Positions 20,905 through 59,293 of a DNA stretch of 64,000 bases are shown here, piece by piece; position 1 is the stretch's first letter; every line of letters begins with the position of its first letter. A program made the position numbers and the translations under genes. Under the pieces are notes generated by a model. That model was not told where the DNA came from. It ran no database searches and worked only from the letters and a program-made list of their open reading frames with translations. The DNA is taken from NCBI RefSeq assembly GCF_012911565.1, contig NZ_JAAMPU010000098.1, positions 1-64,000 of the forward strand, read 5' to 3'. Origin of the DNA: Flavobacterium silvaticum (GTDB lineage Bacteria; Bacteroidota; Bacteroidia; Flavobacteriales; Flavobacteriaceae).

Positions 20905-20940
20905 TGGATTGAGGATTTTACCACATCAAAATCTGAGGTT

Positions 20941-20977
20941 TCACACATAACAAGTTTCAAAAACTTGTTATGTGTGA
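20941..20977. repeat. Dispersed palindrome, copy A (REP-like)
   Basis: Perfect 17-bp arms, TCACACATAACAAGTTT and its complement, surround a CAA loop. The inner 13 bp (ACATAACAAGTTT) are shared with copies at 35464 and 49298. The outer bases differ but remain complementary. It lies between convergent genes and could also end transcription. Confidence 0.85.
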
Positions 20978-21074
20978 AGTTCGGAAATTCTGCCACATCA
21001 TCATTACAGAAAAAATGTACATTTTGTTAAAAAACACATTGGATCTATTCGCCTATAAACCTATTGAAAACACA

Positions 21075-25044: not shown

Positions 25045-27165
25045 ATGAAGAAACTACTACTCCTTTTTGTGGGGCTTGCCTCGTTTTCGATGTCTGCCCA
25101 AGTTACGGCCAATCAACCGGCAAATATGTACGAATGCGGTACGAATGCGGTCGATTTGAATACGCAGATTCCGCAAATCATCCTGAGCCAGAATCTCGCG
25201 ACTCTTTCTGTAACATTTTATCTTTCAGAATTCGATGCCCAAAGTCAAACGAACCAGCTTACGTCTACCTTGGCTTATTCCGGAACGCAATTGGTAACGG
25301 TATATGTGCGCGTAAATAATCTGGCCAATACAGATGCTGATTTCACAAGCTTTAAAGTACTTTGGAATACGCAATCATACTATCCACCCAATATTTTTGA
25401 CGTAACGGTATGCGATTTCTACATTCTTCCGGAACTTGAAGTAGGGTCGTATCACACCGGGCCTGACGGTAGTGGCGCACAGTTGTTTCCGGGCGATTTC
25501 ATTTCCAATTCCACCCTGTTGTTCGTGCTTATCGGAGATGAGGAATGTCATGTGGAATATACGTACTTTATCCAGATTAACTATTCCCCTTACTACGGTG
25601 GTACCATAACGAGCTGTACCGACAACCCGGTTTTTGATTTAAACCAGGCTACATTTTCATGGGGCGACCAAATCTTTTTTTATGAAACCATGGACGACGC
25701 ATTCAACAATGTCAATCCTATTCTCAATACGTCTACTTATTCCGGAACGAACGGCCAGATTGTGTATGCCAATGCGCCTTTTGCCATGTGTAATATGATG
25801 GGAGTCCAACCTATTACTCTGGCACTTTCAGATTGTACCAACGCCACTATTTCAGGTACGGCCCGCCTCAGTTCCAACGGAAACGATTGTTCACCTACTG
25901 ATCCGGGCATTCCGGGCATCATCATTTCGAAAGAACAAGCCGGAGCGACCATGTATGCTTACACCAACGCCCAGGGCCATTATCAGTTCAGTAATGTGGC
26001 GACATCCGGACTTGCAACCATAAATGTCGCAGACACGTATCCCGGCCTATATAACATGACACCTGCTTATGTGCATAATGTAGCGGAAGGACAGACTATT
26101 ACAGATGATTTTTGTCTGGCGCAGATTGATTTTACAGATGCTACTGTTTCATTGTATCCGCTTGTGAATGCACGTCCGGGCCAGCCGGCCAACTATTCGC
26201 TTCGGGTCTTTAATGGCGGAAGCCTTCCGGTAAGCGGAACCGTGACATTGACGTACGATGCAAGCGTATTCACGTTTGTTTCTTCAGATATCGCACCGAC
26301 TTCGAATACGCCGGGACAATTGGTGTTTTCGTTTGCAGATATCGCCCAGTTTGGTTCGGTCTGGAACACGTTGACCTTTGATACGGCTTTGACTGCGACA
26401 TTGGGCCAGCAGGTAACATTTACGGCTGAATTGCCAACGGCCGATACTATTATGTATAACAATGTTTCCGTAGTGAATCAGGTTATCGTGAATTCATTCG
26501 ACCCGAATGATATGCTTGTGGCCGAAGGCGCATACATCAGCGAAGACCAGGCTGACGGTTATCTGCATTACACCATCAACTTCCAGAACCTGGGAACGGC
26601 AGATGCTATTGATGTCGAAATTACCAATATCCTCAGCGATTTCCTCGATTGGAGTACGTTCCGTCCGGTTGCTTCAAGCCATACGTATTTTACCGAAAGA
26701 TATATGAGCGATGTGCTTTTCCGTTTCCCGGACATCCATCTTCCGGCAGAACAGGACGACTCAGCGGGCAGCCACGGATACATTACCTACGAAATCAAGC
26801 CGATAGCCGGACTCGCAGTGGGAGATATCATTGAAAACGAAGCGTATATTGTTTTCGACCAGAATCCGTTTATCGCAACCAATCAGGTCACGACGCAAAT
26901 CCAGCCATTGAGCGTTGGCTCAAATCAATCCGGGCATATTCTTATGTATCCGAACCCGGCCAAAGGAAAAGTGTTCTTCTCAGGAATTTCTGCCGATTCC
27001 CACATTACGGTTACCGATTTGAGCGGGAAACAATTACTGCAACAAAACCCTGAAATTAACGGGAACATTGGTACAGTTGATATTTCAGGATTGTCCGCCG
27101 GAATTTATGTGATGAAACTTACGTCCGCAAATCAATCAACTACACAAAAACTGGTTATAAAATAA
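25045..27165 (+). CDS. T9SS type A sorting-domain secreted protein (paralogue 1)
   Basis: This 706-residue protein starts with a signal peptide (MKKLLLLFVGLASFSMSAQ). A segment of Cys-containing beta-rich modules is followed by a carboxypeptidase-regulatory/SdrD-B-like module near residues 270-330 (ATISGTARLSSNGNDC to GHYQFSNV). A conserved-repeat (DUF11-like/DUF7619) region then carries SFDPNDMLV and LHYTINFQNLGTADA. The last ~75 residues (MYPNPAKGKVFF to GIYVMKLTS...KLVIK) are a type A sorting domain for T9SS export. It is a close relative of the next gene, and the pair looks like a tandem duplication. Ligand unknown. Confidence 0.88.
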   Translation: MKKLLLLFVGLASFSMSAQVTANQPANMYECGTNAVDLNTQIPQIILSQNLATLSVTFYLSEFDAQSQTNQLTSTLAYSGTQLVTVYVRVNNLANTDADFTSFKVLWNTQSYYPPNIFDVTVCDFYILPELEVGSYHTGPDGSGAQLFPGDFISNSTLLFVLIGDEECHVEYTYFIQINYSPYYGGTITSCTDNPVFDLNQATFSWGDQIFFYETMDDAFNNVNPILNTSTYSGTNGQIVYANAPFAMCNMMGVQPITLALSDCTNATISGTARLSSNGNDCSPTDPGIPGIIISKEQAGATMYAYTNAQGHYQFSNVATSGLATINVADTYPGLYNMTPAYVHNVAEGQTITDDFCLAQIDFTDATVSLYPLVNARPGQPANYSLRVFNGGSLPVSGTVTLTYDASVFTFVSSDIAPTSNTPGQLVFSFADIAQFGSVWNTLTFDTALTATLGQQVTFTAELPTADTIMYNNVSVVNQVIVNSFDPNDMLVAEGAYISEDQADGYLHYTINFQNLGTADAIDVEITNILSDFLDWSTFRPVASSHTYFTERYMSDVLFRFPDIHLPAEQDDSAGSHGYITYEIKPIAGLAVGDIIENEAYIVFDQNPFIATNQVTTQIQPLSVGSNQSGHILMYPNPAKGKVFFSGISADSHITVTDLSGKQLLQQNPEINGNIGTVDISGLSAGIYVMKLTSANQSTTQKLVIK

Positions 27166-27185
27166 ATCAGATTCTACTTACCATG

Positions 27186-27230
27186 AAAGCCCTAACTCGT
27201 TAATTATCTGAAACGAAGTAGGGCTTTTTT
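27186..27230 (+). terminator. Terminator between the two T9SS paralogues
   Basis: Arms AAAGCCCTA (27186-27194) and TAGGGCTTT (27219-27227), with extra partial pairing inside (CTCGTT/AACGAAG), then more T residues. Confidence 0.8.
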
Positions 27231-27263
27231 GCGGTAACTTGTTTCGGCTAAAACGACCAACCT

Positions 27264-29399
27264 ATGAAAAAACTTTTACTCTTTGTTTTATTGATTGTTG
27301 CCGTGCCTGCCTTCGCTGTTCCGGTGGCTTATCCTGTACCCAATTTGCATAGTTGCAGCGGGGTTTTTGATTTGACTGTTCAGACACCTGTCACTTTGGG
27401 CAATCAAAATCCGAACGAGTTCGCAGCCCACTATTACATGACTGAGATTGATGCCAATTCAGATGTCAATCCTATAAACAACCCGGAATCTTATACGGCA
27501 CTCGAAAGCGGCCAGATGATTTTTATCCGGGTATTCAACATCTTCAACGGTCAATTCGACACCACCTCTTTCGCTCTTTTTACGAATGCAGTCGATGTCC
27601 CGGAATTTCCCGATGTAACCTATTGCGGATCATATGCATTGCCACCGCTTGAAATCGGGCATTACTACACGCAACCCGGCGGAGAGGGCGATTTGTTTCC
27701 TTCCGGCTGGGTAATAACGACTACGCGAATCATTTATATTTATTCAGGCGAAGGCGATTGCGCTTCCGAAACGTCTTTTCACATTACCATAAATCCGTTG
27801 CCGGTCATCCAGACACCGATTAACTTGTATGCCTGTGCCGAAACGACATTCAATCTGGCAAATCTTGCAGAACAGATTGTGGCATATAACGATGCAGCTG
27901 TAGAAGTTCATTTCTATCATACCATGGCAGATGCCACAGCAAACGTGAACGCAATCGAAAACCTGCAATATGCCGGAACGAACAATGAAAATGTGTTTGT
28001 CAAAGTGACTGATATAGGATCGAACTGCTATAAAATCGAAGATTTCCATTTACACGTCCAGAATTGTTCCGAAGCGACTATTTCCGGTATTGTGCGTTTC
28101 GATGCCAACGGAAATGGCTGTAATGACGAAGATCCTGTTTTGGCAGGCGTTACCGTGGTTGCCATCCATAACAACGATACGTTTTATGCCTATACGAACG
28201 AATCTGGTGAATACCAGTTTTCAGGATTGCCGACCGGTGAATACCACGTGTTCCTGTTGGCGAACGGTCAGCCGTTCAATGTGGTGACACCGGAAATCTA
28301 TACATTCAACGTGACCGGCGACAGTGCGGGAACGGGTAATTTTTGTGTCACGTTCAACGAATACCATGACCTTGGGATAGAATTTTACTCGTCTTTGGCT
28401 CCCGTTATCGGAAATAATCGCGGCTACATTCTCAAAATCCACAACCACGGCACCGTTCCTGCATCTGGAACTGTCAATGTAACGTTTGATTCAGATGCGT
28501 TTTCAGTCGTAAACAACGCAGGCGGAACCGTAAATGGAAACACAATCGACTTTGCCGTAAACGCATTGGCACCGGGACAAACCATTACGCTTGAAATTGT
28601 ACTTCATGTGGGTGAACCACCTGTTGCGGAGGCCGGAGACGAGGTTTCGTTTATAGCCCATCTGGAATATGAGTTGGATGAAAACCTGGATAACAATCAC
28701 GTGGTTTTGGTACAAACCTTAGTCAGTTCACTTGACCCGAATGATATTGCGGTTCATGAAGGCGCTTTGATTACTTATGAGCAGGCCCAGGGTTATCTGC
28801 ATTACACGGTCCGGTTCCAGAACACGGGAACTGCCGTCGCTGATACTATTCGTATCGAAAACCAATTGAGCCCTTTGTTGAATGCGGCTACGTTCCGTCC
28901 GGTCGCATCAAGCCATCCGTTTTTTGTGCAACGCGTAGATGGAAATGTGACGTTTCGTTTCAACAACATCAACTTGCCTGCGGAACAGGATAACGAAGAA
29001 GCCAGCCACGGATTCATCACCTATGAAGTAAAACCGATGGAAGGATTGACCGTAGATCAACTCATAGAAAACAACGCCAATATTTATTTTGACTTCAATG
29101 AAGCAGTCGTGACCAATACGGTCGGTACAGAGATCATCAATCTTGGAACTCCGGAAAATACTTCGGATGCCGTAGTAATGTATCCGAATCCGGCCAAAGA
29201 AAAACTGTTCCTCGTCGGAATACAAAATAAGGCTACGTTAACCGTGGCCGATTTGAGCGGAAAGATGCTTTTCGTACGTGAAGTAAACGCTGCGGAAGGA
29301 ACTTCAGGAATCGATGTTTCAAACCTTTCTACCGGAATGTATGTGATTAAGATAGTTTCTGACGGAAAAACGTTCAACAAGAAACTGATAGTCCAATAA
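27264..29399 (+). CDS. T9SS type A sorting-domain secreted protein (paralogue 2)
   Basis: This 711-residue protein has the same architecture as the preceding gene. It has a signal peptide (MKKLLLFVLLIVAVPAFA), a Cys-containing beta-rich half, an SdrD-B-like module (ATISGIVRFDANGNGC to GEYQFSGLPTGEYHV) and a region with SLDPNDIAV and LHYTVRFQNTGTAVA. It ends in a type A sorting domain (MYPNPAKEKLFLVG to MYVIKIVS...KKLIVQ). C-terminal halves of the two paralogues are strikingly similar and N-terminal halves are less so, suggesting diversification of the exposed part. An internal terminator separates their transcripts. Confidence 0.88.
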   Translation: MKKLLLFVLLIVAVPAFAVPVAYPVPNLHSCSGVFDLTVQTPVTLGNQNPNEFAAHYYMTEIDANSDVNPINNPESYTALESGQMIFIRVFNIFNGQFDTTSFALFTNAVDVPEFPDVTYCGSYALPPLEIGHYYTQPGGEGDLFPSGWVITTTRIIYIYSGEGDCASETSFHITINPLPVIQTPINLYACAETTFNLANLAEQIVAYNDAAVEVHFYHTMADATANVNAIENLQYAGTNNENVFVKVTDIGSNCYKIEDFHLHVQNCSEATISGIVRFDANGNGCNDEDPVLAGVTVVAIHNNDTFYAYTNESGEYQFSGLPTGEYHVFLLANGQPFNVVTPEIYTFNVTGDSAGTGNFCVTFNEYHDLGIEFYSSLAPVIGNNRGYILKIHNHGTVPASGTVNVTFDSDAFSVVNNAGGTVNGNTIDFAVNALAPGQTITLEIVLHVGEPPVAEAGDEVSFIAHLEYELDENLDNNHVVLVQTLVSSLDPNDIAVHEGALITYEQAQGYLHYTVRFQNTGTAVADTIRIENQLSPLLNAATFRPVASSHPFFVQRVDGNVTFRFNNINLPAEQDNEEASHGFITYEVKPMEGLTVDQLIENNANIYFDFNEAVVTNTVGTEIINLGTPENTSDAVVMYPNPAKEKLFLVGIQNKATLTVADLSGKMLFVREVNAAEGTSGIDVSNLSTGMYVIKIVSDGKTFNKKLIVQ

Positions 29400-29758: not shown

Positions 29759-32700
29759 ATGAAAACCGGAAAACTCCTGGGTGTAATCTGTGCGCTTGTG
29801 ATGCTGCACGGCTGTTCTAAAAAATCAGATGCTGATTTTAATTCCAATCCTGAACTTTTCAAAGAATTCATCTCCGGTTTTACCGCCGGACCTGTGCCTG
29901 CAAAGTCGGATTTTCGCGTCCAGTTGGCTTTTTCCAAAAAGGAATGGAAGCCAGATGATGAGTTGCCGTCTTCCTTGTTCGATATTTCGCCTTCGGTGAG
30001 CGGAAAGGTGAAGGTTTTAAGTGCGAATACCGTGGCGTTCATCCCAGATAAAAAACTCGATCAGGATACGCCGTACCAGGTGAAATTCAACTTGTCGCAA
30101 ATCATCGAAGTCCCAAAGGATTTGCGGGAATTCCGGTTTACGGTACGAACCATCAGACAGGATATCGCGGTTTCGGTCCTCGATCTGCAATCATACTCAA
30201 GCGAATACCAGTACCTCAATGCGCGACTTCGCAGTGCGGACCAACTGGATGCTGAAACGGCCAAAAAACTCGTCAGTGCTCAATTCGAAGGTCAGCCGCT
30301 TAAAATCAAATATGACAAACAACACAGTTCGCCAACCGATTTTAGGTTTATCGTCGATAGCATCAAACGCGGTTCTGCCGACGGAAAACTGGAATTGTCG
30401 TGGGATGGTGATGAAGCCGATATCGATCGCACAGGAAAACTCGAATTCCCGATTGCGGCGGTCGATAATTTCAAAGTCCTTCGAATTTCTGCGGGTGACG
30501 ATACGAACCAGATGATCCGTATAAACTTCTCTGATAGATTGGACAAAGACCAGGATTTTAGCGGATTGGTGTCGATATCCAATGCTTCGAACCTGCGTTT
30601 TATGACAGAAGGAAACGTGTTGAAAGTATTTTTTGACAACGGATCGGCGGCTGTGGCAACTGCCGTGACCGAAGCCGCTATTGATACAGCGGTAGTCTAT
30701 GCTGAAAGTGTGACGACCGATTCCAATGATCCGGAAAGTACCAAACTGGTCGAAGTTTTTCAGGGAATCAAGAACAGCGACGGGAAAAAGATGGAGAAAG
30801 TCTATACCCAGAAAATCACGTTCGAGCAGATAAAGCCGGGTGTAAGATTCCTTAAAAGTGGCTCGATTCTGCCTTCATCAGCCAACCTCAAACTCAATTT
30901 CGAAGCTGCGAACCTGAATGCCGTAGATGTAAAAATCTATAAGATCTACAAGAACAACATCATGCAGTTCCTCCAGGACAATGAGCTCAACGGAAGCCGG
31001 AACATGCGTCAGGTTTCCCAGCCGATTGCCGTAAAGAAAATCGTCCTCAAGCAGAATTCGTTGCTCGATTATTCCAAATGGAATACGTACGCTTTGGATT
31101 TGTCAAAGCTGATTACACCGGACGCGGGAGCGATTTACCGTGTTGAGTTCGGCATGAAGCGCGCGTATTCGCTTTACAAATGCGAAGGAAGTTCTCCTGA
31201 ATTCGAAAATGAAGATGAATCTGAGGAAGAATTCAATGAAGACGACGTAAACTACAGCGGCTACGGATACGACGGCTATTACTACGACGACGATTACGAT
31301 TGGTATGAAGAAGAAGATCCGTGTTCGAATTATTTCTATCACAACAAGATTGCGACTAACGTACTGGCTTCAGATATTGGCATCATCGCCAAACGCGGCC
31401 TCGACAAATCATACTTCATTGCCGTAAACGACATCCTCACGACAGATCCGATCCAGGGCGCGACGGTCAAATTGTACAATTACCAGCAGCAGGAAATCGC
31501 TTCGGGAATGACAAATCCGCTTGGGACTATTTCGTTCAAGTCGAATAAATACGCCTATTTCGCCATTGTCACCAAAGGCAAGCAAAGCAGCTATCTCAAG
31601 CTTGACGATGAAAAATCCTTGTCGATGAGCAATTTCGATGTGTCCGGCGAAACACTCGAAAAAGGCCTCAAAGGTTTTATCTACGGAGAGCGTGGCGTGT
31701 GGCGTCCGGGTGATACGATGTTCCTGTCGTTTATCCTGAACGATAATGCAAACAAGCTTCCGGCGGCACATCCTATTAAATTCAGATTGACCGATCCGCG
31801 CGGAAAAGTGGTCTATGAAACCGTAAAACCTACGAATGCGCTCAATCATTATGTATTTGAGGTCAGCACCGAAGCATCGGCCCAAACCGGAAGCTGGGAA
31901 GCCATGGTATCTGTCGGAGGCGCACATTTCTACAAGAACATCAAGGTGGAAACCATCAAGCCGAATCGTCTCAAAATCAAGAATTCGTTCAATGGGAACT
32001 TCCTTTCTGCCACTCGTGAAAATTTCAATACCATTACGGCAACCTGGCTTCACGGTGCGATCGCCAAGGATTTGAAGGTTGAAGTCCAGATGAAACTGAG
32101 TTCGCAAGCGACAGCTTTTAAAGGATACGACGGCTATAATTTTGACGATGCGACACGTAATTTTTCAACCGAAGAAATAAATCTGTTTTCCGGAAAAGTC
32201 AATGGGAACGGACAGGCGACTTATCCGATTCTGCCAAACCTTTCGACCCAATCTCCGGGAATGCTCAAAGCCGCTTTCATCACAAAAGTATATGAAACCG
32301 GTGGCGACGTAAGTACCGACGTGAGTGCTGCCGATTACTCGCCTTACGTCACTTACATAGGTTTGAAAGTGGCAGGAACGAACCGATACGGTATGCTCGA
32401 AACCGAAAAACCGAACAAATTCAGCATTGTCAGCGTCGATGAAAACGGAAAGCCAAAAGGAAATACGGCCGTTGATGTCAAAGTCTATCGATTGGAATCG
32501 AGATGGTGGTGGGATGCCTCGTCCGATAATTTGTCGCGATACAGCTCTTCGACTTCAATCACACCGTACAAGCAATTTCAGACGACAACCAATGCTTCAG
32601 GTAATGCTGCAGTTTCTTTGACCGTTCCTCAGGCGGAATGGGGTCGGTTCCTGATTCGGGTGTCTGATGCGAAAGGCGGCCATGCGACATCGGAAACTGT

Positions 32701-35347
32701 GTTCATCGACTGGCCGTCATGGTCAGGAAAAACACGTAACGCCGATGGGGAATCGGCCAATATGCTGATGTTTACCACAGATAAGAAAAAGTACGCGACA
32801 GGTGAAAAAGCCAAGATATTTTTCCCGTCGAGTGCAGGCGGACGCGCATTGATTTCGGTTGAAAACGGAACCAAAGTACTTAAAACCTTCTGGGCGAAAT
32901 CACAAGCTGGAGAAACCCAGATGGAAATTCCGGTGACGCCTGAGATGGCACCGAACGTCTACATCAATATTACGTTGCTTCAACCGCACGCTAATACCAA
33001 AAACGATTCGCCGATCCGGATGTATGGTGTCGTTCCGATAGAAGTGGTCGATAAAAATACCATCCTTGAACCGACTGCGGTTTTACCATCGGAACTCAAA
33101 CCTGACCGGAATTTCGATATAAAAGTGGCCGAGAAAAACGGTAAACCAATGACGTATACCATTGCTATTGTCGACGAAGGCTTGCTCGACCTGACACGTT
33201 TCAAAACCCCGAATGCGTGGGATGCGTTTTATGTTCGTGAGGCTTTGGGTGTAAGAAGCTGGGATTTGTATGACGATGTGATTGGCGCTTATGGCGGAAA
33301 AATCAACCAGGTGTTTGCCATTGGTGGAGATGCGGCACTTGGTGGCGGAAAAGCGAAGAAAGCCAATCGATTCAAACCTGTCGTGAAATTCATCGGGCCG
33401 TTTGAGCTTGGAGCCGGGCAGAACCGCACGCATAAAATCAAGATGCCGAATTACGTTGGTTCCGTGCGTGCTATGGTGGTTGCCGCCAATGCAAAATCCG
33501 GGGCTTACGGAAGTTTTGAAAAAGCGGTTCCGGTGAAAAGCCCGTTGATGGTGCTGGCATCGTTGCCTAGAAAAATCACACCCTCGGAAAAAGTCGTGTT
33601 GCCGGTTACGGTGTTCGCGATGAAGAATTCGGTTAAAAATGTATCGGTGGAGGTTAAGACCAGCCCGAATATCAAAGTCGTCGGTCCATCGAAACAATCG
33701 CTTTCGTTCTCGAACCCGGATGAAAAAATGGCGTATTTCAGCCTCGGAGTTGCCAAAGCCACGGGAATTGGCAAAATAACCGTTACGGCGACCTCAGGCT
33801 CTGAAAAATCGACGTATGATGTGGAAATCGATGTGATGAACCCGAATCCGGTGACGCAGACATTCCAGGATTTTATCCTCGGCCCGAATGCTTCAAAGAC
33901 TATGGATTGGCAGCCATTCGGTGAAAACGGGACTTCAAAGGCGACGCTCGAAGTTTCCTCTTTCCCAACTATAGATCTGAATCGCCGACTCAATTATCTG
34001 ATCCAATATCCGCATGGTTGCGTGGAACAGACGACATCTTCGGTATTTCCGCAATTGTACCTGGCCGATGTGATGGATATTGAAGCATCTCGTCAAAAGG
34101 CCATGCAGGGTTATATCACTGCCGCAATCCAGCGTCTCGGTGGCTTTCAACAACCGAATGGCGGATTGTCTTATTGGCCGGGCGGAACTTATGCAGATGA
34201 TTGGGGAACGACTTATGCCGGACATTTTATGATTGAAGCGGAACGAAAAGGATATGTACTGCCGATTGGTTTCAAACAGAAATGGATCAATTATCAAAAG
34301 AAAACTTCAGGTGCGTGGCGTTATGTGCGTGAATTCGGGACAGATCAGGCTCAGGCGTATCGATTGTATACACTGGCGCTTGCAGGTTCGCCGGATTTGC
34401 CTTCGATGAACCGTCTGCGTGAAACCCCGGGAATTTCGAATGAAGGCAAAATGAGGCTTGCAGCGGCTTATGCATTGGTCAAACAGACAGATGCTGCCAA
34501 GTCACTTTTGGCGAAATCGGCTCTTGAATCGTATGAAACCCACTATTTCTATTATGGTTCACCAGAACGGAACAGGGCGATGGAACTGGAAACGCTGATG
34601 CTTTTGGGCCAGCAGAAACAGGCATTCCAGACTGCTGCGAAATTGGCGAAGGAACTGTCATCCAGCCGTTGGATGAGCACGCAAACCACCGCTTACGGAT
34701 TGTATGCCATGTCTAAGTTCGCTTTGGCAAACGGCCGGGACGGAATTCAGGTTGATTTGAGTCAGGGCGGAAAAGTAATGTCTGTTTCGACCAAAAAATC
34801 ACTGGCTTCGCGGAACCTGTCGGTTACATCTGGCAAGAATGGCATCAGCCTTAAAAACAAAAAAGGGAATAGTGTTTATGTGCGGATTTTGAACAGCGGT
34901 ATTTTGCCTGTCGGAAAAGAACTGGCGGAACAACGAAACATTAGCGTGTCCACAATTTTCAAAGACAGCAAAGGCCAAACGATCAATGTGTCCAAAATTG
35001 CACAAGGGACTGAATTTACCGCTGAGGTTTACGTGACCAATTCAAGTAAGGAATTTTTGAGCAATATGGCCTTGACGCAGATTCTGCCTTCCGGATTCGA
35101 GATTGTCAACACACGTTACACAGATTATGGCGCAACGACGGAAAATAACGTCGATTATATTGACATTCGCGATGACAGGGCGAATTATTATTTCTGGATC
35201 AAACCTGGTGAAACGAGAAAGTTCAGCATGAGATTGAATGCGTCGTATCCTGGGATTTATTATATGCCGGGCGTGCAGTGTGAGGCGATGTATGATACTA
35301 ATTACCTGGCTCGGAATAAGGGGCAGTGGGTTGAAGTGGAGCGTTGA
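29759..35347 (+). CDS. Bacterial alpha-2-macroglobulin lipoprotein
   Basis: This 1862-residue protein begins with a lipoprotein signal (lipobox VMLHGC). It has serial macroglobulin beta-domains, a bait-like region, the A2M core with GERGVWRPGDTMFL and VRSWDLYDDVIGAYGG, and the thioester motif Cys1421-Val-Glu-Gln in GCVEQTTSSVFPQLYL. Thioester-domain helices and a C-terminal receptor-like domain follow. Bacterial A2Ms trap incoming proteases in the periplasm, and the retained CxEQ suggests covalent trapping. An unusual acidic Tyr/Asp/Glu-rich insert lies near residues 480-525. Downstream is pbpC, the classic partner that repairs the cell wall after a breach, with one chimeric gene in between. 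Confidence 0.94.
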   Translation: MKTGKLLGVICALVMLHGCSKKSDADFNSNPELFKEFISGFTAGPVPAKSDFRVQLAFSKKEWKPDDELPSSLFDISPSVSGKVKVLSANTVAFIPDKKLDQDTPYQVKFNLSQIIEVPKDLREFRFTVRTIRQDIAVSVLDLQSYSSEYQYLNARLRSADQLDAETAKKLVSAQFEGQPLKIKYDKQHSSPTDFRFIVDSIKRGSADGKLELSWDGDEADIDRTGKLEFPIAAVDNFKVLRISAGDDTNQMIRINFSDRLDKDQDFSGLVSISNASNLRFMTEGNVLKVFFDNGSAAVATAVTEAAIDTAVVYAESVTTDSNDPESTKLVEVFQGIKNSDGKKMEKVYTQKITFEQIKPGVRFLKSGSILPSSANLKLNFEAANLNAVDVKIYKIYKNNIMQFLQDNELNGSRNMRQVSQPIAVKKIVLKQNSLLDYSKWNTYALDLSKLITPDAGAIYRVEFGMKRAYSLYKCEGSSPEFENEDESEEEFNEDDVNYSGYGYDGYYYDDDYDWYEEEDPCSNYFYHNKIATNVLASDIGIIAKRGLDKSYFIAVNDILTTDPIQGATVKLYNYQQQEIASGMTNPLGTISFKSNKYAYFAIVTKGKQSSYLKLDDEKSLSMSNFDVSGETLEKGLKGFIYGERGVWRPGDTMFLSFILNDNANKLPAAHPIKFRLTDPRGKVVYETVKPTNALNHYVFEVSTEASAQTGSWEAMVSVGGAHFYKNIKVETIKPNRLKIKNSFNGNFLSATRENFNTITATWLHGAIAKDLKVEVQMKLSSQATAFKGYDGYNFDDATRNFSTEEINLFSGKVNGNGQATYPILPNLSTQSPGMLKAAFITKVYETGGDVSTDVSAADYSPYVTYIGLKVAGTNRYGMLETEKPNKFSIVSVDENGKPKGNTAVDVKVYRLESRWWWDASSDNLSRYSSSTSITPYKQFQTTTNASGNAAVSLTVPQAEWGRFLIRVSDAKGGHATSETVFIDWPSWSGKTRNADGESANMLMFTTDKKKYATGEKAKIFFPSSAGGRALISVENGTKVLKTFWAKSQAGETQMEIPVTPEMAPNVYINITLLQPHANTKNDSPIRMYGVVPIEVVDKNTILEPTAVLPSELKPDRNFDIKVAEKNGKPMTYTIAIVDEGLLDLTRFKTPNAWDAFYVREALGVRSWDLYDDVIGAYGGKINQVFAIGGDAALGGGKAKKANRFKPVVKFIGPFELGAGQNRTHKIKMPNYVGSVRAMVVAANAKSGAYGSFEKAVPVKSPLMVLASLPRKITPSEKVVLPVTVFAMKNSVKNVSVEVKTSPNIKVVGPSKQSLSFSNPDEKMAYFSLGVAKATGIGKITVTATSGSEKSTYDVEIDVMNPNPVTQTFQDFILGPNASKTMDWQPFGENGTSKATLEVSSFPTIDLNRRLNYLIQYPHGCVEQTTSSVFPQLYLADVMDIEASRQKAMQGYITAAIQRLGGFQQPNGGLSYWPGGTYADDWGTTYAGHFMIEAERKGYVLPIGFKQKWINYQKKTSGAWRYVREFGTDQAQAYRLYTLALAGSPDLPSMNRLRETPGISNEGKMRLAAAYALVKQTDAAKSLLAKSALESYETHYFYYGSPERNRAMELETLMLLGQQKQAFQTAAKLAKELSSSRWMSTQTTAYGLYAMSKFALANGRDGIQVDLSQGGKVMSVSTKKSLASRNLSVTSGKNGISLKNKKGNSVYVRILNSGILPVGKELAEQRNISVSTIFKDSKGQTINVSKIAQGTEFTAEVYVTNSSKEFLSNMALTQILPSGFEIVNTRYTDYGATTENNVDYIDIRDDRANYYFWIKPGETRKFSMRLNASYPGIYYMPGVQCEAMYDTNYLARNKGQWVEVER

Positions 35348-35463
35348 TTGAATTGTCGGATAACATTTTTGAAGCTGATTTTTTCGTTAGGATCGATATA
35401 AGGCGATTTTAACAAAATAGGCAGAAAAAGTGTACTTAGGTTTAAACTTTTTGGATGAGGTTT

Positions 35464-35502
35464 GTAATACATAACAAGTTTTCAAAACTTGTTATGTATT
35501 AC
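35464..35502. repeat. Dispersed palindrome, copy B (REP-like), next to RAYT-like gene
   Basis: Perfect 18-bp arms (35464-35481 and 35485-35502) with a TCA loop. The inner arm is the same ACATAACAAGTTT as in copies A and C. The outer arm is GTAAT, complementary to ATTAC on the other side. It lies 58 bp before the start of the RAYT-like chimeric gene. Confidence 0.88.
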
Positions 35503-35560
35503 GGCTCAAAAAAAGCCGAAAAATCATCATACTAAACCGCCATTCAAAAAAATCCAAGCC

Positions 35561-36847
35561 ATGAAACGAGAACCCTTCCTCCCAGACAATTATTACCACC
35601 TCAAAAATTCCGGCAACAACTTCGAACCACTATTTTACGAAGACGAGAATTACATTTATTTTCTAAGCCTTCTCAAAAAACACATCCATCAAATTGCCAC
35701 ATTACAATCGTTCCGGTTATATAAAAACAGTTTCGAGATTATAGTAAAGATCAAGAAGACCAATGTGATTCCCGATAAATACAAAGACCGAATGCATCAA
35801 CCGTTTGCCAATTTTTTCATTGCCTATACCAAGAGCATCAACAAAAGATATTGTCGCAGCGGCAGTTTATTCAGGGAACATTTCAAAAGGCAACGACTTG
35901 ATTTTGGTCAAATGAAAAGAATGAAGGCAGAAATGGAATCGAAAATCATGACATCGTCAAGTAGTAAGACTTCGATTGTTTGGACAAATCCTGAAAGAAG
36001 GGTGAAAAATATAATTCCGGATCATCCTGGATTGCGGAAATCCAGATTCCATGGCTTATTCAGGATAGCTGTTTGTTCAGTCATCACGATTTGTATGCTG
36101 AGTTCATTCAGGTCAGTCAAGGTATCATCTAAAAGTTTCAAAATCAAGGATACGATTCCACAATTTCTGTATTCAGTATTTCCTAAACTGAAAGAAACTG
36201 CCGGAAAAGACTCGCTTTTTTTTGCCTACGAACCTTTTTATGATGAAGAAGATGGCCAATACCTGGTCGCTGGCGATTTTATGAAACACGGTCAATTCAA
36301 TGCCATTTCCGCATCGGCGAAAGACAGTCTTATGGTGTTTTATGAGTATCAAAATGCCAGTTGGAATATTATTGGAACAGAAAAGCTATGTGGTTTTGAT
36401 CAGATGGAATTCGAAGACCTAACCGGTGACGGACAAAAGGAAATTCTCGCTGTGTCTGGTCCAAATATGAATGGCAACAGGTCATACACTATTTATCTCA
36501 AGTCAGCCATTTCTGGAAATGTGCATGAAGCCGGTGGTTTTTTTGGAAGATATGAAGTCTTTTCTGCAACTAAACTCAAGTATATCTACGAAGGAAGCTG
36601 GTATGCCGATTATATACAGACGCTTTACGAATGGAGAGAGGAACACTTAATTCCCGTGCGTAGTGTTTCTGTCGGATTGAAAAATGCCGATGGGCGACAC
36701 AGTGGCCAATGGATAAAATTTGAGCGTAATCCGGCTTTAGGAACAAATACTTTGGTAGAAGTTTTCAAAGAAACCTATCGCGAAAACAGCCAAAAACACA
36801 ATTACATCGTAAACCACATCTTTGACGACAATTTTCATTTCAGGTGA
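35561..36847 (+). CDS. Degenerate RAYT (Y1 transposase-like) domain fused to membrane-anchored FG-GAP-like domain
   Basis: I take the ATG at 35561 (MKREPFLPDNYYHL); the frame also runs upstream into the palindrome, but only from a TTG. Residues 1-115 follow the pattern of REP-associated tyrosine transposases: NYYHLKNSGNN, then FFIAYTKSINKRYCRSGSLF and FKRQR. However, the HUH position reads NSFEIIVKI instead of NHFHxxI, and the C-terminal part with the catalytic Tyr is absent, so transposase activity is not expected. A membrane segment lies at ~166-183 (LFRIAVCSVITICMLSSF), then ~245 outer residues with DLTGDGQKEI, a calcium-loop/FG-GAP-like motif. The stop overlaps the GTG start of pbpC by 4 bp. 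Internal ATGs (residues 121, 125, 130) could instead start a plain signal-anchored protein. Confidence 0.7.
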   Translation: MKREPFLPDNYYHLKNSGNNFEPLFYEDENYIYFLSLLKKHIHQIATLQSFRLYKNSFEIIVKIKKTNVIPDKYKDRMHQPFANFFIAYTKSINKRYCRSGSLFREHFKRQRLDFGQMKRMKAEMESKIMTSSSSKTSIVWTNPERRVKNIIPDHPGLRKSRFHGLFRIAVCSVITICMLSSFRSVKVSSKSFKIKDTIPQFLYSVFPKLKETAGKDSLFFAYEPFYDEEDGQYLVAGDFMKHGQFNAISASAKDSLMVFYEYQNASWNIIGTEKLCGFDQMEFEDLTGDGQKEILAVSGPNMNGNRSYTIYLKSAISGNVHEAGGFFGRYEVFSATKLKYIYEGSWYADYIQTLYEWREEHLIPVRSVSVGLKNADGRHSGQWIKFERNPALGTNTLVEVFKETYRENSQKHNYIVNHIFDDNFHFR

Positions 36848-39219
36848 AAAAAATCTCTTCATTTTTTGGGAAAATAATAAAACATATCAGGAGACATCCG
36901 ATTAAATCAACCGTATTCCTGATCGCGTTGATTGCCTATTATTTATGTCTGCCTGAGACACTTTTCGACGAACCTTATTCCACCGTAATCGAAAGCCGTG
37001 AAGGGGAATTGCTTGGGGCTAAAATAGCTTCTGACGGTCAATGGCGTTTTCCGGCAGCCGACAGCATTTCCGCTAAATATGCCCAATGTGTCGTGATGTA
37101 TGAAGATGAGAATTTCAGGCGACATCCGGGTTTCAACCCAATCTCAATGTACAAGGCATTTGTCCAGAACAGGAAAGCAGGCAAAGTCATTCGAGGCGGA
37201 AGCACCATAACACAGCAGGTAATCCGCCTGTCCCGAAAAAATAAACAACGGACGTATTTCGAAAAATTGATTGAAATAATTCTCGCTACACGTCTTGAAC
37301 TGCGTATGTCCAAAGATGAAATCCTTCAAACGTATGCTGCCCATGCGCCTTTTGGCGGAAATGTCGTGGGGCTTGAAATGGCTTCGTGGCGGTATTTCGG
37401 AGTTCCTTCACATCAATTATCGTGGGCCCAAAATGCAACCTTGGCCGTTTTACCGAATGCTCCGGGGTTGATTTTTCCGGGTCGGAACCAAGAACCGTTA
37501 AAAAGAAAGCGCGATGCGCTATTGAAAAAACTGTTTCAAAAAGGGTGTATCGACAAAATGAGCTACGAACTCGCATTGGTTGAACCGTTGCCGCAAAAGC
37601 CGTTCAATCTTCCTCAAACTGCTCCACACTTGCTTTCCCGCGTGTCAAAAGAGCATGATGGAAAGCGGATTCAGACGACTGTTGATTTAGCACTCCAGGA
37701 ACGGTTGAACCAGATTGCGAGAACCTATTACAACCAATTCCGCCAGAATGAAGTGTATAATTTATCCATTATGGTTATCGATGTCAAGACAAGGAATATT
37801 GTCGGATATGTTGGCAATTCCCCAACTGATAAGGACCACAAGAAAGATGTCGACATCATTACAGCGCCACGAAGTACCGGAAGTATTCTGAAACCGTTGT
37901 TGTTTGCTTCGATGCTTGACGAAGGTGAAATACTTCCGAATTCGCTTGTCGCCGATATTCCGGTACAAATTTCCGGTTTCATGCCGCAGAATTTCGATAT
38001 GACTTACGACGGAGCTGTTCCTGCACAAAAGGCACTTTCCAGATCGTTGAATATTCCGGCGGTTCTGATGCTCCAGCAACACGGCGTCAATAAATTCTAC
38101 GAGACCTTGCAGCATTTCAAATTGCGCGATATCAACAAGCATCCGGATCATTATGGTCTATCGCTGATTCTGGGTGGAGCTGAATCGAATTTGTGGGATT
38201 TGTGCCGAACGTACGCCAATCTTTCCTCAACACTCAGCTATTTCACTTGCAACGATGCCAAATATCGGAACCATGAATTTTCAGAATTGAATTATATCGA
38301 TGGCTTAAAACCTGATTTTGGGAAGGATTCTTTTGAAAAACCAATCGTGGGGGCCGGTGCAATTTGGCTGACTTTTAACGCGATGAAAGAAGTCAACCGG
38401 CCGCAAGGAGACGAAGCCTGGAAATTCTATGATTCATCTGTAGAAATTGCCTGGAAAACCGGAACAAGCTTTGGGAACCGCGATGCCTGGGCGATTGGTG
38501 TAAATTCAAATTATGTCGTAGGGGTTTGGGTCGGAAATGCATCCGGAGAAGGAAGACCCGAACTTACAGGTGTCAATTGTGCCGCGCCGGTTTTATTCGA
38601 TGCGTTCAATCTGCTGCCCAAAAAGAAATGGTTCGCTGCACCTCTCAATGATCTTGAACAAGTTGAGGTTTGTGCCGAAAGCGGATTTCTGGCGCTCGAT
38701 GATTGTCCTAAAGTAAAACAATACGTTTCCATCAAGGGTAAAAACAGTAAGACGTGTCCGTATCATAAGTTGGTTCAGCTGGATTTATCGGGAAATTTTC
38801 GTGTCAATTCCAATTGTGAAGAGGTGTCGCAGATGATTTCCCAAAACTGGTTTGTACTTCCTCCGGTCATGGAATATTATTACAAAAGCAGCCATGTGGA
38901 TTATCGGCCTTTGCCACCTTTGAGAAAGGATTGTTCCGGAACAGAAAAAGCGCGCATGGATTTTATCTATCCCAAAACACTGACGCCGAAAATTTACCTG
39001 ACCAAAGATTTCAGGGGAAAAATACAGCCGCTTATTGTAAAGGTAGCACATTCAGATTCTAATGCGGTTTTGTTTTGGTACGTCGATGATGTGTTCAAAG
39101 GAAAGACACAGACGTTCCATGAGATGCAACTCGCCGTTTCTTCCGGAAAACATGTGATTACTGTTGTGGATGACAAAGGCAATGAAGTCCGGCGGAATCT
39201 GGAAATCATAAGGGAATAA
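36844..39219 (+). CDS. pbpC: Penicillin-binding protein 1C
   Basis: This 791-residue bifunctional peptidoglycan synthase starts at a GTG overlapping the previous stop. It has an N-terminal anchor (~residues 19-37) and a GT51 glycosyltransferase domain with EDENFRRHPGFNP and RGGSTITQQVIRLSR. The transpeptidase domain has Ser347-Ile-Leu-Lys350 (SxxK) and WKTGTSFGNRDAWAIG (KTG), and a PBP1C-specific C-terminal domain follows. It polymerises and cross-links glycan strands, and genomes often pair it with bacterial alpha-2-macroglobulin as a wall-breach response. Here the two are separated by the chimeric RAYT-like gene, to which pbpC is translationally coupled. Confidence 0.94.
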   Translation: MKKISSFFGKIIKHIRRHPIKSTVFLIALIAYYLCLPETLFDEPYSTVIESREGELLGAKIASDGQWRFPAADSISAKYAQCVVMYEDENFRRHPGFNPISMYKAFVQNRKAGKVIRGGSTITQQVIRLSRKNKQRTYFEKLIEIILATRLELRMSKDEILQTYAAHAPFGGNVVGLEMASWRYFGVPSHQLSWAQNATLAVLPNAPGLIFPGRNQEPLKRKRDALLKKLFQKGCIDKMSYELALVEPLPQKPFNLPQTAPHLLSRVSKEHDGKRIQTTVDLALQERLNQIARTYYNQFRQNEVYNLSIMVIDVKTRNIVGYVGNSPTDKDHKKDVDIITAPRSTGSILKPLLFASMLDEGEILPNSLVADIPVQISGFMPQNFDMTYDGAVPAQKALSRSLNIPAVLMLQQHGVNKFYETLQHFKLRDINKHPDHYGLSLILGGAESNLWDLCRTYANLSSTLSYFTCNDAKYRNHEFSELNYIDGLKPDFGKDSFEKPIVGAGAIWLTFNAMKEVNRPQGDEAWKFYDSSVEIAWKTGTSFGNRDAWAIGVNSNYVVGVWVGNASGEGRPELTGVNCAAPVLFDAFNLLPKKKWFAAPLNDLEQVEVCAESGFLALDDCPKVKQYVSIKGKNSKTCPYHKLVQLDLSGNFRVNSNCEEVSQMISQNWFVLPPVMEYYYKSSHVDYRPLPPLRKDCSGTEKARMDFIYPKTLTPKIYLTKDFRGKIQPLIVKVAHSDSNAVLFWYVDDVFKGKTQTFHEMQLAVSSGKHVITVVDDKGNEVRRNLEIIRE

Positions 39220-49140: not shown

Positions 49141-49297
49141 ATTAAAAATTGAGTGTTGATTTTCGTGTGTTTGTTCAGCAGAACGGCAGTTAGTTGCGGC
49201 CGTTTTGAAAATGTTACGCCAAAAGTACCTTTTTTTGGTGAATGCTTCAAGTTTAGGGAGTTATTTCGGCGATTTGCGGCGCATGTAATTTGAAGAC

Positions 49298-49338
49298 TTC
49301 GAAACATAACAAGTTTCCAAAACTTGTTATGTTTCGAA
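49298..49338. repeat. Dispersed palindrome, copy C (REP-like)
   Basis: Perfect 19-bp arms (49298-49316 and 49320-49338) with a CCA loop. The inner arm ACATAACAAGTTT matches copies A and B. The outer arm TTCGAA is different but perfectly complementary. Confidence 0.88.
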
Positions 49339-49433
49339 AGTAACGATTTGGCCGCACATTTTGCTGTAGTTTTTATGTATCAATTGTTAAACTTTCTGAC
49401 CTGATACGTAATGTCAAATCCTACCTTTGTGCC

Positions 49434-52387: not shown

Positions 52388-52704
52388 AATCGGTCGGTTT
52401 TCAGGATAGTAGGAGTAATTTGAGAGCCAGTGATGCCAGTGAAAAGAAAAGAATCAAGAAAAAGATGCTGATCCCGCTGGTTAATTTGAAAGTTTAACAA
52501 AATATACATTTTTTCTACAGCTGCAAAAATTTTAGATTGTGTAGGGTCATGCACCGGCCCCTTCCCTGTGACAAGATAATGATTCTGTCGATAAGCCAGT
52601 TACATGAAAAATGTACTTAACATTTTTTGCCGCTGAATTTCAAAAATTTCCCGAAGCCAAAATGAAAAGGCTATAAGTCTGTAAATCCAAATCTGCATAA
52701 AATT
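52388..52704. other. 317-bp intergenic region, no gene supported
   Basis: A hydrophobic open stretch exists on the minus strand (52401-52493) but has no start codon. No RNA gene or clear promoter box is recognised. Confidence 0.4.
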
Positions 52705-58585: not shown

Positions 58586-58990
58586 GTGGAAAAAGAACGA
58601 ATCGTATCGGAACTGAACTACAAAGCAGTTCGAAGCAGCGGTGCCGGTGGCCAAAATGTCAATAAAGTTTCCTCAAAGGTGGAACTGACTTTCGATGTTG
58701 AAAAATCCCAGAGCTTTTCTGTCGAAGAAAAAGTTTTGCTGCTCGAAAAACTGCAGTCACGGCTCACGAATTCGGGCTTGCTCATCTTAAAAAGCGACGA
58801 AGACCGAAGCCAGCTCAAGAACAAAGAAATCGTTACACGACGTTTTTTTGAACTGATTGAAAAGGCGCTGCATGTGCCAAAAATCCGTAAAGCGACAAAA
58901 ATCCCGAGATCTGTGGTTGAGAAACGACTGAAGAATAAGAATGTGAATTCAGAATTGAAGCAATCGCGAAGAAAGCCTGATTTGAGTTAG
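58586..58990 (+). CDS. arfB: Alternative ribosome-rescue factor ArfB (YaeJ)
   Basis: The GTG at 58586 gives (M)EKERIVSELNYKAVRSSGAGGQNVNK, with the peptidyl-tRNA hydrolysis GGQ motif at residues 21-23. The 134-residue product has the short release-factor fold and the basic C-terminal tail (KNVNSELKQSRRKPDLS) that senses an empty mRNA channel. It frees ribosomes stalled without a stop codon. It lies 5 bp after DUF4301 and ends the overlapping operon. The frame is also open far upstream inside the DUF4301 gene, but that part is not conserved-looking. Confidence 0.92.
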   Translation: MEKERIVSELNYKAVRSSGAGGQNVNKVSSKVELTFDVEKSQSFSVEEKVLLLEKLQSRLTNSGLLILKSDEDRSQLKNKEIVTRRFFELIEKALHVPKIRKATKIPRSVVEKRLKNKNVNSELKQSRRKPDLS

Positions 58991-59056
58991 TAATTAACAG
59001 TTAACGATTAACAATTAATAATTGCCTTTCGGGATTTTGGGTTTAAAACACATAAT

Positions 59057-59240
59057 ATGGAAAATAAAAGACCAAAAAATCCCGGAATTCTTCTGATAGT
59101 AATCAGTCTTGTCGCGCTTTAAAACCAAGGATTTCCAAAATCTGAGGAATAACCAAATTGCACTGCTCGCCGCTCTGATGGTATTTTTATTCTTAGGGTT
59201 TTACGCCAATTATAAAGCCAGCCAAAAATTGAAGGACTGA
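59057..59240 (+). pseudogene. Frameshifted ~60-aa two-helix membrane protein
   Basis: The ATG at 59057 opens MENKRPKNPGILLIVISLVAL, then TAA at 59120. In the +1 frame the sequence continues directly from 59121 with KTKDFQNLRNNQIALLAALM... and a second helix to YKASQKLKD and TGA (59238-59240). Joined, this makes a short two-helix membrane protein of about 61 residues, so a 2-bp deletion or 1-bp insertion near CTTTAAAA has broken it. A sequencing error or a programmed frameshift is an alternative. It lies just upstream of the TPP riboswitch. Confidence 0.7.
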
Positions 59241-59293
59241 ATACTCCTGGAATTAATTGTTAATTATTAATCATTAATTATTAATTTCGCCAT

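Follow-up and report, generated by a model that had tools for sequence, protein, structure and literature searches.

A RAYT domain without catalytic residues, joined in frame to a predicted membrane-anchored envelope protein at the MG2-pbpC locus of Flavobacterium

What becomes of a REP-associated tyrosine transposase (RAYT) once its catalytic residues are gone is the question raised by a gene of Flavobacterium silvaticum, which lies in a stretch of 64,000 nucleotides (positions 1 to 64,000 of NZ_JAAMPU010000098.1, assembly GCF_012911565.1), here called the window. An earlier note on this DNA had described residues 1-115 of the product as RAYT-like, had seen a dispersed palindrome in front of the gene as its candidate REP and had taken the gene to be unable to mobilise DNA and in need of an active paralogue. 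The fusion of the RAYT part to a second protein, its recurrence in a second species, the composite repeat, the purifying selection and the inheritance of the MG2-pbpC locus by vertical descent, all described below, were absent from that note. The locus contains the following features:

29759-35347, + strand: MG2, presumably alpha-2-macroglobulin-like, as we name it from the A2M-pbpC pair; landmark upstream of the locus
35561-36847, + strand: the fusion gene, 428 aa, from the ORF map; the same fusion is one ORF in G361
35561-35905, + strand: RAYT (Y1) domain according to alignments and a weak AF2 model, residues 1-115, catalytically dead
35726-35740, + strand: residues 56-60, NSFEI replacing NHFHI, with both HUH histidines lost in the alignments
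35837-35884, + strand: residues 93-108, INKRYCRSGSLFREHF, in the alignments the best-kept block of the domain
36053-36109, + strand: hydrophobic segment, residues 165-183, predicted membrane anchor (Kyte-Doolittle maximum 1.99)
36158-36844, + strand: envelope (LP) domain, approximately residues 200-428, a stand-alone gene in the slot of five genomes
36844-39219, + strand: pbpC, which we take to encode penicillin-binding protein 1C; landmark downstream of the locus

Judged by homology, residues 1-115 are a RAYT (TnpA-REP, Y1) domain. A search with the protein itself found matches in 60 of 150 genomes of the genus, its own included (E<=0.001), and most of the matches listed pair residues of about 1-116 with ORFs of about 200 aa. 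The best one aligns residues 1-116 with a 197-aa ORF of G097 (50% identity, E 1.5e-32), followed by residues 6-115 with G044 (52%, E 1.9e-30), so that the RAYT similarity claimed earlier is borne out, at 50-52% identity to full-length Flavobacterium RAYTs with E values down to 1.5e-32. The HMM search proposed for these residues had a divided outcome, since the family models gave no match and the direct comparison with relatives did: Pfam recognised no Y1_Tnp in the window protein and none in its own genome at E<=10, and no RAYT model of NCBIfam matches the protein. Here, it should be considered that among six full-length relatives Pfam Y1_Tnp scored only one above its cut-off, four below it, and left one unlisted at E<=1. 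In G090, G023 and G067 it is residues 215-424 of the window protein that are matched, not the RAYT part. Outside the genus, a scan of a genome collection returned one distant RAYT only (Cloacimonadota, L043, 36%), and no RAYT was found in a scan of viral contigs.

On the structural level, a phmmer search of the window protein against the PDB gave nothing useful. A profile of the RAYT family has TnpA-REP 4er8 as its sole PDB match at E<=1 (E 2.3e-4), a match which rests mostly on the half absent from the window gene. With a profile of the dead domains only, no Y1 structure was found in the PDB; its matches to SUMO (best E 3.2e-4) were dismissed as chance-like. AF2 reached a pLDDT of 30.6 on the whole protein, and on the domain, with one homologue used, it gave a weak model (pLDDT 59, pTM 0.49) with the order beta-alpha-beta-beta-alpha-beta. 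Rows 1-15 of a fold comparison with this weak model are all Y1 transposases, among them those of ISDra2, IS608, IS200 and S. tokodaii, at Z 7.6-9.0, followed by other proteins at 7.3 and 5.9, on a scale where a Z under 8 may mean a common fold. Foldseek placed its best match at E 6.3e-3, none at or below 0.001, with 4er8 on rank 6 (E 0.032), and 4er8 is missing from the 50 rows of the above fold comparison. As modelled, the dead domain sorts with the Y1 fold.

The loss of catalysis had been recognised correctly in the earlier note, and the alignments agree on both parts of it. NHFH of the relatives reads NSFE at residues 56-59, which leaves the HUH (HxH) motif absent. Beyond GSLFREHFKR (the GSLFREHFxR block) the window protein is unrelated to RAYTs; the domain stops at about residue 115, and no catalytic Tyr motif Y[IV]HxNP was found in the protein. 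An alignment of six dead domains (window, G361:C24, G241:C64, G361:C15, G000:C98 and G034:C175, G000 being the window's own genome) has the second His changed to Glu in four. Among 72 RAYT rows, which were drawn from the best profile matches, so that dead copies elsewhere may be under-sampled, 61 keep both His and Tyr. Seven are without HUH and come from only four genomes (G000, G241, G361, G034), two have Tyr changed to Phe (G097, G176), one has Ser (L108 of G241), and the remaining one, L163, is cut off before it reaches the Tyr. The dead group as aligned is present in 4 of 398 sampled genomes, and no report of a conserved catalytically dead RAYT was found in open papers. Residues of the E. 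coli protein that touch the REP foot include Q95, E100 or D100, and R104, according to the available parts of PMC6006769 and PMC8266576. Since LF of GSLF corresponds to chain positions 93-94 in the 4er8 alignment, the kept block GSLFREHFxR would fall into this contact region, which in the accessible text of PMC6006769 is described as not conserved in RAYT subclass 2.6.

L009 (G097) and L148 (G176), the two loci with Phe in place of the catalytic Tyr, carry full-length RAYTs in which HUH is present, a possible intermediate of the loss. Since at the MG2-pbpC locus they differ only by this residue, stages of loss may be sampled here.

As read from the sequence, the gene is an in-frame join of the dead RAYT domain and an envelope protein with a predicted membrane anchor, for which residues 165-183 are the sole candidate, as no other segment exceeds 1.6 on the Kyte-Doolittle scale. 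Its stop at 36847 overlaps the GTG start of pbpC by 4 nt, and the envelope part overlaps the start of pbpC by these 4 nt in all three species (window, G241 and G361). In G361, the fusion is a single ORF of 424 aa, counted from its own ATG, with 42% identity to the window protein over 438 aligned positions. In G241, a dead RAYT of 143 aa is followed by TAA-g-ATG and the envelope gene, hence two ORFs one base apart. The linker between the RAYT and envelope parts is poorly conserved (21% identity, window vs G361). By eye, the hydrophobic segment of the window protein has its nearest preceding ATG at codon 130, a distance of 35 residues, and any closer start would need TTG or GTG. In G361, the hydrophobic segment closes in a lipobox-like LNAC, and an internal Met lies 32 residues before its Cys, which is why the envelope part may have a separate start there. 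No report of a RAYT-envelope fusion was found in open papers.

For the envelope domain, the NCBIfam model NF047539 (XAC2610 family) gave 14.6-22.6 bits in 8/8 members, all below its cut-off of 35, and the best PDB match of the family profile (E 0.021) is not convincing. XAC2610 itself is described in the available part of PMC10933484 as an immunity protein, similar in fold to a lysozyme inhibitor of the periplasm. The likeness to such periplasmic inhibitors (X-Tfi; PMC10933484, as far as available) is a weak but consistent profile match, a lead only. An XAC2610-like domain beside A2M and PBP1C would fit an envelope-defence operon.

The position of the gene points to its origin. Matches to both MG2 and pbpC were found at 33 of the 72 RAYT loci, of which 27 hold a catalytically complete RAYT, two the full-length Tyr to Phe forms of G097 and G176, one a truncated copy (G249) and three a HUH-less one. 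Hence, a full-length RAYT stands at this locus in 29 other genomes. At eleven loci (L009, L011-L020) the RAYT is alone between MG2 and pbpC, flanked by palindromes of the CCTAACAGG...CCTGTTAGG type. The envelope protein occupies this slot with no RAYT match in G090, G023, G067, G285 and G161, and in G241 and G361, the nearest species by pbpC (74% identity), the slot contains a dead RAYT together with the envelope protein. A HUH-less RAYT at the locus is known in three species only. The RAYT tree places the window copy as sister to its G361 orthologue (99/88), and long branches leave the placement of the other dead copies uncertain. These comparisons show, on the level of sequence, that the window gene derives from the RAYT found between MG2 and pbpC in many Flavobacterium. 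The simplest history would be that a resident, vertically inherited RAYT died, was truncated and became joined to its neighbour.

The dead domain is, by sequence comparison, under purifying selection and not a decaying fossil. Between the window and G361, the RAYT part is 62% identical and the envelope (LP) part 42%. Differences in the RAYT part fall on the three codon positions at 33/21/55%, with pN/pS of 0.246/0.851; synonymous differences are saturated, so dN/dS gives no number. A full-length pair at like distance (G097-G102, 64% identity) has 32/17/57%, and the pairs of complete RAYTs compared, which are closer (78-86%), have a similar third-position bias. In a neutral simulation over 115 codons at the observed distance, only 0.8% of 2000 runs stayed stop-free, with a mean of 4.4 stops. 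It follows from identity, codon positions and simulation that the dead domain is the best-conserved part of the fusion.

In front of the gene lies a repeat, of which the window contains three copies:

35400-35506, + strand: whole composite repeat (block, spacer and palindrome), covariance model R1, 90.8 bits
35409-35435, + strand: its left block, TTAACAAAATAGGCAGAAAAAGTGTAC
35464-35502, no strand: REP-like perfect palindrome GTAATACATAACAAGTTTTCAAAACTTGTTATGTATTAC, 39 bp, with 19-bp arms and a 1-nt centre
20936-21039, - strand: further copy of the composite repeat, covariance model R1
49295-49399, - strand: further copy of the composite repeat, covariance model R1

The training set of R1 included all three window copies. 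The palindrome ends at 35502, 58 bp before the ATG at 35561, precisely where the earlier note had placed it. Its dispersal is confirmed as well: the core occurs three times in the window (six strand matches; expected 0.00, reached in 0 of 100 shuffles) and seven times in the genome, compared with none for a reversed control. In the ORF maps read, the palindromes of the own genome sit between genes or at the border of a gene start. G241 and G361 have palindromes at the corresponding position before the dead RAYT, and the window palindrome is a variant of the one that flanks full-length RAYTs at the same locus, corresponding to the 5' REP. A 3' palindrome of the window RAYT gene was not found. 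The view of a RAYT beside its own REP therefore stands in so far as this palindrome class accompanies the RAYT clade, and for the 5' side only.

This association extends over the genus. A palindrome is present on at least one side in 63 of 65 HUH-bearing RAYT rows and on both sides in 52; counted by flank (arms>=10), 115/130 have one vs 9/260 control windows of the same loci. By eye, each of the RAYT-flanking palindromes consists of two short hairpins, with central bases that vary by RAYT clade. On a tree of 70 RAYTs, the palindrome class, assigned by our own patterns, changes 12 times, compared with a mean of 28.8 after shuffling (0/200 as low). The median number of palindrome copies is 18 in the 29 genomes in which an AAC-clade RAYT was fetched, which make up the list of this clade, vs 0 in the other 369 (Mann-Whitney p 4e-22). 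Among these 369, 114 are above 0 and 17 have 10 or more copies, which means that the repeats also occur without a listed AAC-clade RAYT. A GT[AG]G foot is absent at the window copy and carried by 3/28 copies. All Rfam matches around the palindrome are far below the gathering scores. A general role of the palindromes as transcription terminators was rejected, as several of them separate divergent genes or sit directly upstream of a gene start.

From its sequence, the palindrome is the right end of a composite repeat of about 100 bp. All seven genome copies have a block starting with TTAACA and resembling TTAACAAAATAGGCAGAAAAAATGTAC, which begins 56-60 bp before the 29-bp core, and block and palindrome are paired likewise in G241 (18 copies) and G361 (3 copies), where the distance to the inner core is 58-64 bp. 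When spacing is ignored, a block score of at least 18/27 is reached by 20/28 copies (the other eight score 14-17) vs 9/3000 random window stretches; the consensus was built from the own genome, so the independent share of this result is the 15/21 from G241 and G361. At ten palindrome loci of genomes with other RAYTs, the left block was not seen (best 12-17, spacing not fixed). The partner of the window palindrome is thus a conserved block about 60 bp away, and the inverted doublet of two palindromes is absent. Variants are genome-specific, with ACATAACAAG in 6/7 own copies and CCTAACAG[GA] in G241. Sites correspond in identical orientation at the RAYT locus (three species) and upstream of a gene that we take to be GumN-like (G000 and G361). 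A recJ site was not counted as orthologous between G000 and G241, since the repeat is inverted there.

Within the palindrome, 4/15 pairs have changes on both sides. Across the seven copies, pairing of the outer arms is better within a copy (5.1/6) than between copies (3.0). A second hairpin inside the left block was considered and discarded, its stem length of 4.5 being hardly above the 3.9 of shuffles. A TAnnTTTG-like -7 motif (<=1 mismatch) stands just before the palindrome in 14/28 copies vs 15% in shuffles, the copies being homologous and not independent. With 150 candidates scored per genome, the covariance model gave at least 21 matches in the own genome, including opposite-strand shadows, at no fewer than 11 distinct places, four of which have the same left block and another palindrome class. 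G361 has at least 127 matches, the most of ten genomes searched. Weaker matches (up to 64 bits vs 97) in genomes with other RAYTs (G157, G042, G097, G161) may be driven by the palindrome alone. Of the first-class repeats of the own genome, 6/7 are upstream of the next gene and co-oriented with it; in G241 the orientation is mixed (8/17 co-directional, one more copy having no gene on that side), as for an ordinary mobile repeat.

Some further arrangements of the repeat were observed. In L216, L217, L218 and L219 of the own genome (C93, C105, C107), the left block is joined to the different palindrome class (CCTTCCAGG...CCTGGAAGG), and the block is therefore common to two repeat families. At window 52488-52516, a left block (TTTAACAAAATATACATTTTTTCTACAGC) is present with the palindrome unrecognisable at the usual distance, possibly a half-copy. 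In G361 (L211:873-1989, L212, L213, L215), the composite repeat forms non-coding tandem arrays with a unit of about 285 bp (read in L211 and L212), several of the matches lying near contig ends.

The idea that a defunct copy is served by an active paralogue finds no support in this genome. In the assembly, which is 99.97% complete, the RAYT family profile, with all 21 candidates scored, recognised two RAYT-like genes, the fusion gene and C98:27415-27861, and the latter is likewise without HxH and Tyr; both are dead. No catalytically complete RAYT was found with this profile, and the proposed search for an intact RAYT with the same palindrome ended without one; very divergent Y1 proteins may escape such a search. 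Neither outcome named beforehand as speaking against the RAYT claim, a lack of RAYT similarity or intact RAYTs beside unrelated palindromes, occurred. With only dead RAYTs found, two repeat classes have no cognate RAYT that could be recognised; they are either relics or maintained by something else. The second dead, truncated RAYT (L106, the C98 gene, and L042/L107 at G034:C175) has similar neighbour ORFs in two species, presumably a glycoside phosphorylase and a neopullulanase-like gene, and at G034:C175 there is a CCTCAAAGG palindrome on either side of it.

We consider it probable, at about two chances in three, that the gene represents a domesticated, cleavage-dead RAYT whose putative hairpin-binding domain has become tethered to the membrane. 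In the lineage of this species and its two nearest sampled relatives, the comparisons show that the RAYT at the MG2-pbpC locus lost its two HUH histidines together with the C-terminal half that carries the Tyr, that its N-terminal domain was retained by purifying selection, and that this domain was joined to the envelope protein (two species) or lies one base before its gene (one species). The dead domain would keep the Y1 fold and may bind the single-stranded hairpins of the palindrome without cutting, and the fusion would be held at the inner membrane, its RAYT domain facing the cytoplasm and its XAC2610-like domain the periplasm.

The stand-alone envelope gene of five other genomes, the separate ORFs of G241 and the internal Met of G361 would also fit an unlikely reading, in which the RAYT part only delivers ribosomes, while the envelope protein has an internal start and a signal peptide of its own and functions by itself. 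A leader of this kind would not need 62% amino-acid conservation, better than that of the gene it serves, and the distance of the nearest ATG in the window speaks against it as well. The missing catalytic residues, C-terminal half and 3' palindrome might likewise suggest a fossil by accident, that is a recent truncation with a chance in-frame reading into the neighbour and no role, the more so as an open frame is required only if the ATG at 35561 is used. Nevertheless, the identity to the G361 orthologue, above that of the envelope part, the codon-position pattern, the rarity of stop-free neutral drift and the occurrence of the fusion in two species, next to a third in which only one base separates the two ORFs, make such an accident distinctly improbable. 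That the dead domain is a dominant-negative guard, which attaches to REP hairpins or to subunits of live RAYTs and so prevents the spread of the repeat, with the membrane fusion being incidental, would agree with the confinement of all seven HUH-less copies among 72 rows to four genomes and with two dead copies and no complete one found in G000. However, G000 has, as far as found, no complete RAYT to inhibit, and G361, with three HUH-less copies, has the most repeats, which leaves this reading very improbable.

Beyond a tethered binding domain, the fusion could make a dead transposase part of a one-component regulator that spans the membrane. Its RAYT domain would read the repeats, including that of its own gene, as operators or 5' hairpins, with the XAC2610-like domain sensing cell-wall attack in the periplasm for an envelope-defence operon with A2M and PBP1C. 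The co-orientation of 6/7 own repeats with the next gene, the -7 motif and the correspondence of two repeat sites in relatives despite the genome-wide change of palindrome sequence would be compatible with this reading, which we regard as rather improbable and against which the mixed orientation in G241 speaks. Its predicted layout would be that of the ToxR/CadC one-component regulators, in which a cytoplasmic nucleic-acid-binding domain, a winged helix, is connected through one membrane segment to a periplasmic domain, except that the putative binding domain here is a transposase domain.

Among known RAYTs, the closest likeness is to subclass 2.6 (Quansah et al., 2018), which corresponds to group 5 of Bertels et al. 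(2017) according to the available text of PMC6006769. The likeness consists of a shared Bacteroidota distribution and the same sequence family, assigned by phylum and motif text and not by profile. In the part of that paper available, genes of this subclass are flanked by atypical hairpins without the GT[AG]G consensus that have copies elsewhere in the genome, as here. In contrast, the window gene has neither HUH nor Tyr, a predicted membrane-anchored envelope protein replaces its C-terminal half, its 3' palindrome was not found, and its palindrome lies within a composite repeat. The palindromes also resemble REP/REPIN (BIME) sequences as short, dispersed, intergenic palindromes tied to a RAYT. 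Beside full-length relatives, in the cases read, palindrome doublets with mirrored centres occur about 72-78 bp apart, whereas in the dead-RAYT clade the partner is the conserved block and not an inverted palindrome.

According to the accessible part of PMC8049555, RAYTs owe the term domesticated to their vertical inheritance as single-copy genes, and their host role is given as unknown. A RAYT domain kept by selection after catalysis was lost would mean that hairpin binding is separable from cutting, and the envelope protein in the A2M-pbpC operon would be a concrete partner for seeking this host role. Furthermore, a change of RAYT clade goes along with a change of palindrome class in Flavobacterium, and in the present genome repeats persist with no complete RAYT detectable.

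A RAYT in frame with another gene was also observed in G528, where L162:298-1839 is one 514-aa ORF in which a RAYT that has both the HUH and the Tyr motif continues into HemF (PF01218, E 4e-134), a coproporphyrinogen III oxidase. The same arrangement may be present in eight genomes of other genera (G553, G522, G530:C38, G564, G433:C27, G549, G531, G471), whose RAYT matches lie within open frames 490-553 aa long. Elsewhere in the window, seven head-to-tail 201-bp repeats lie at 1-1400 inside a large surface-protein-like gene, which presumably has a C-terminal end of the gliding-motility type. Two adjacent paralogous secreted proteins of about 700 aa at 25045-29399 are probably a tandem duplication (repeat spacing about 2234 bp), and at 58987-59284 two AT-rich 33-bp arms of TTAATTAACA-like units, 82% complementary, stand 232 bp apart.
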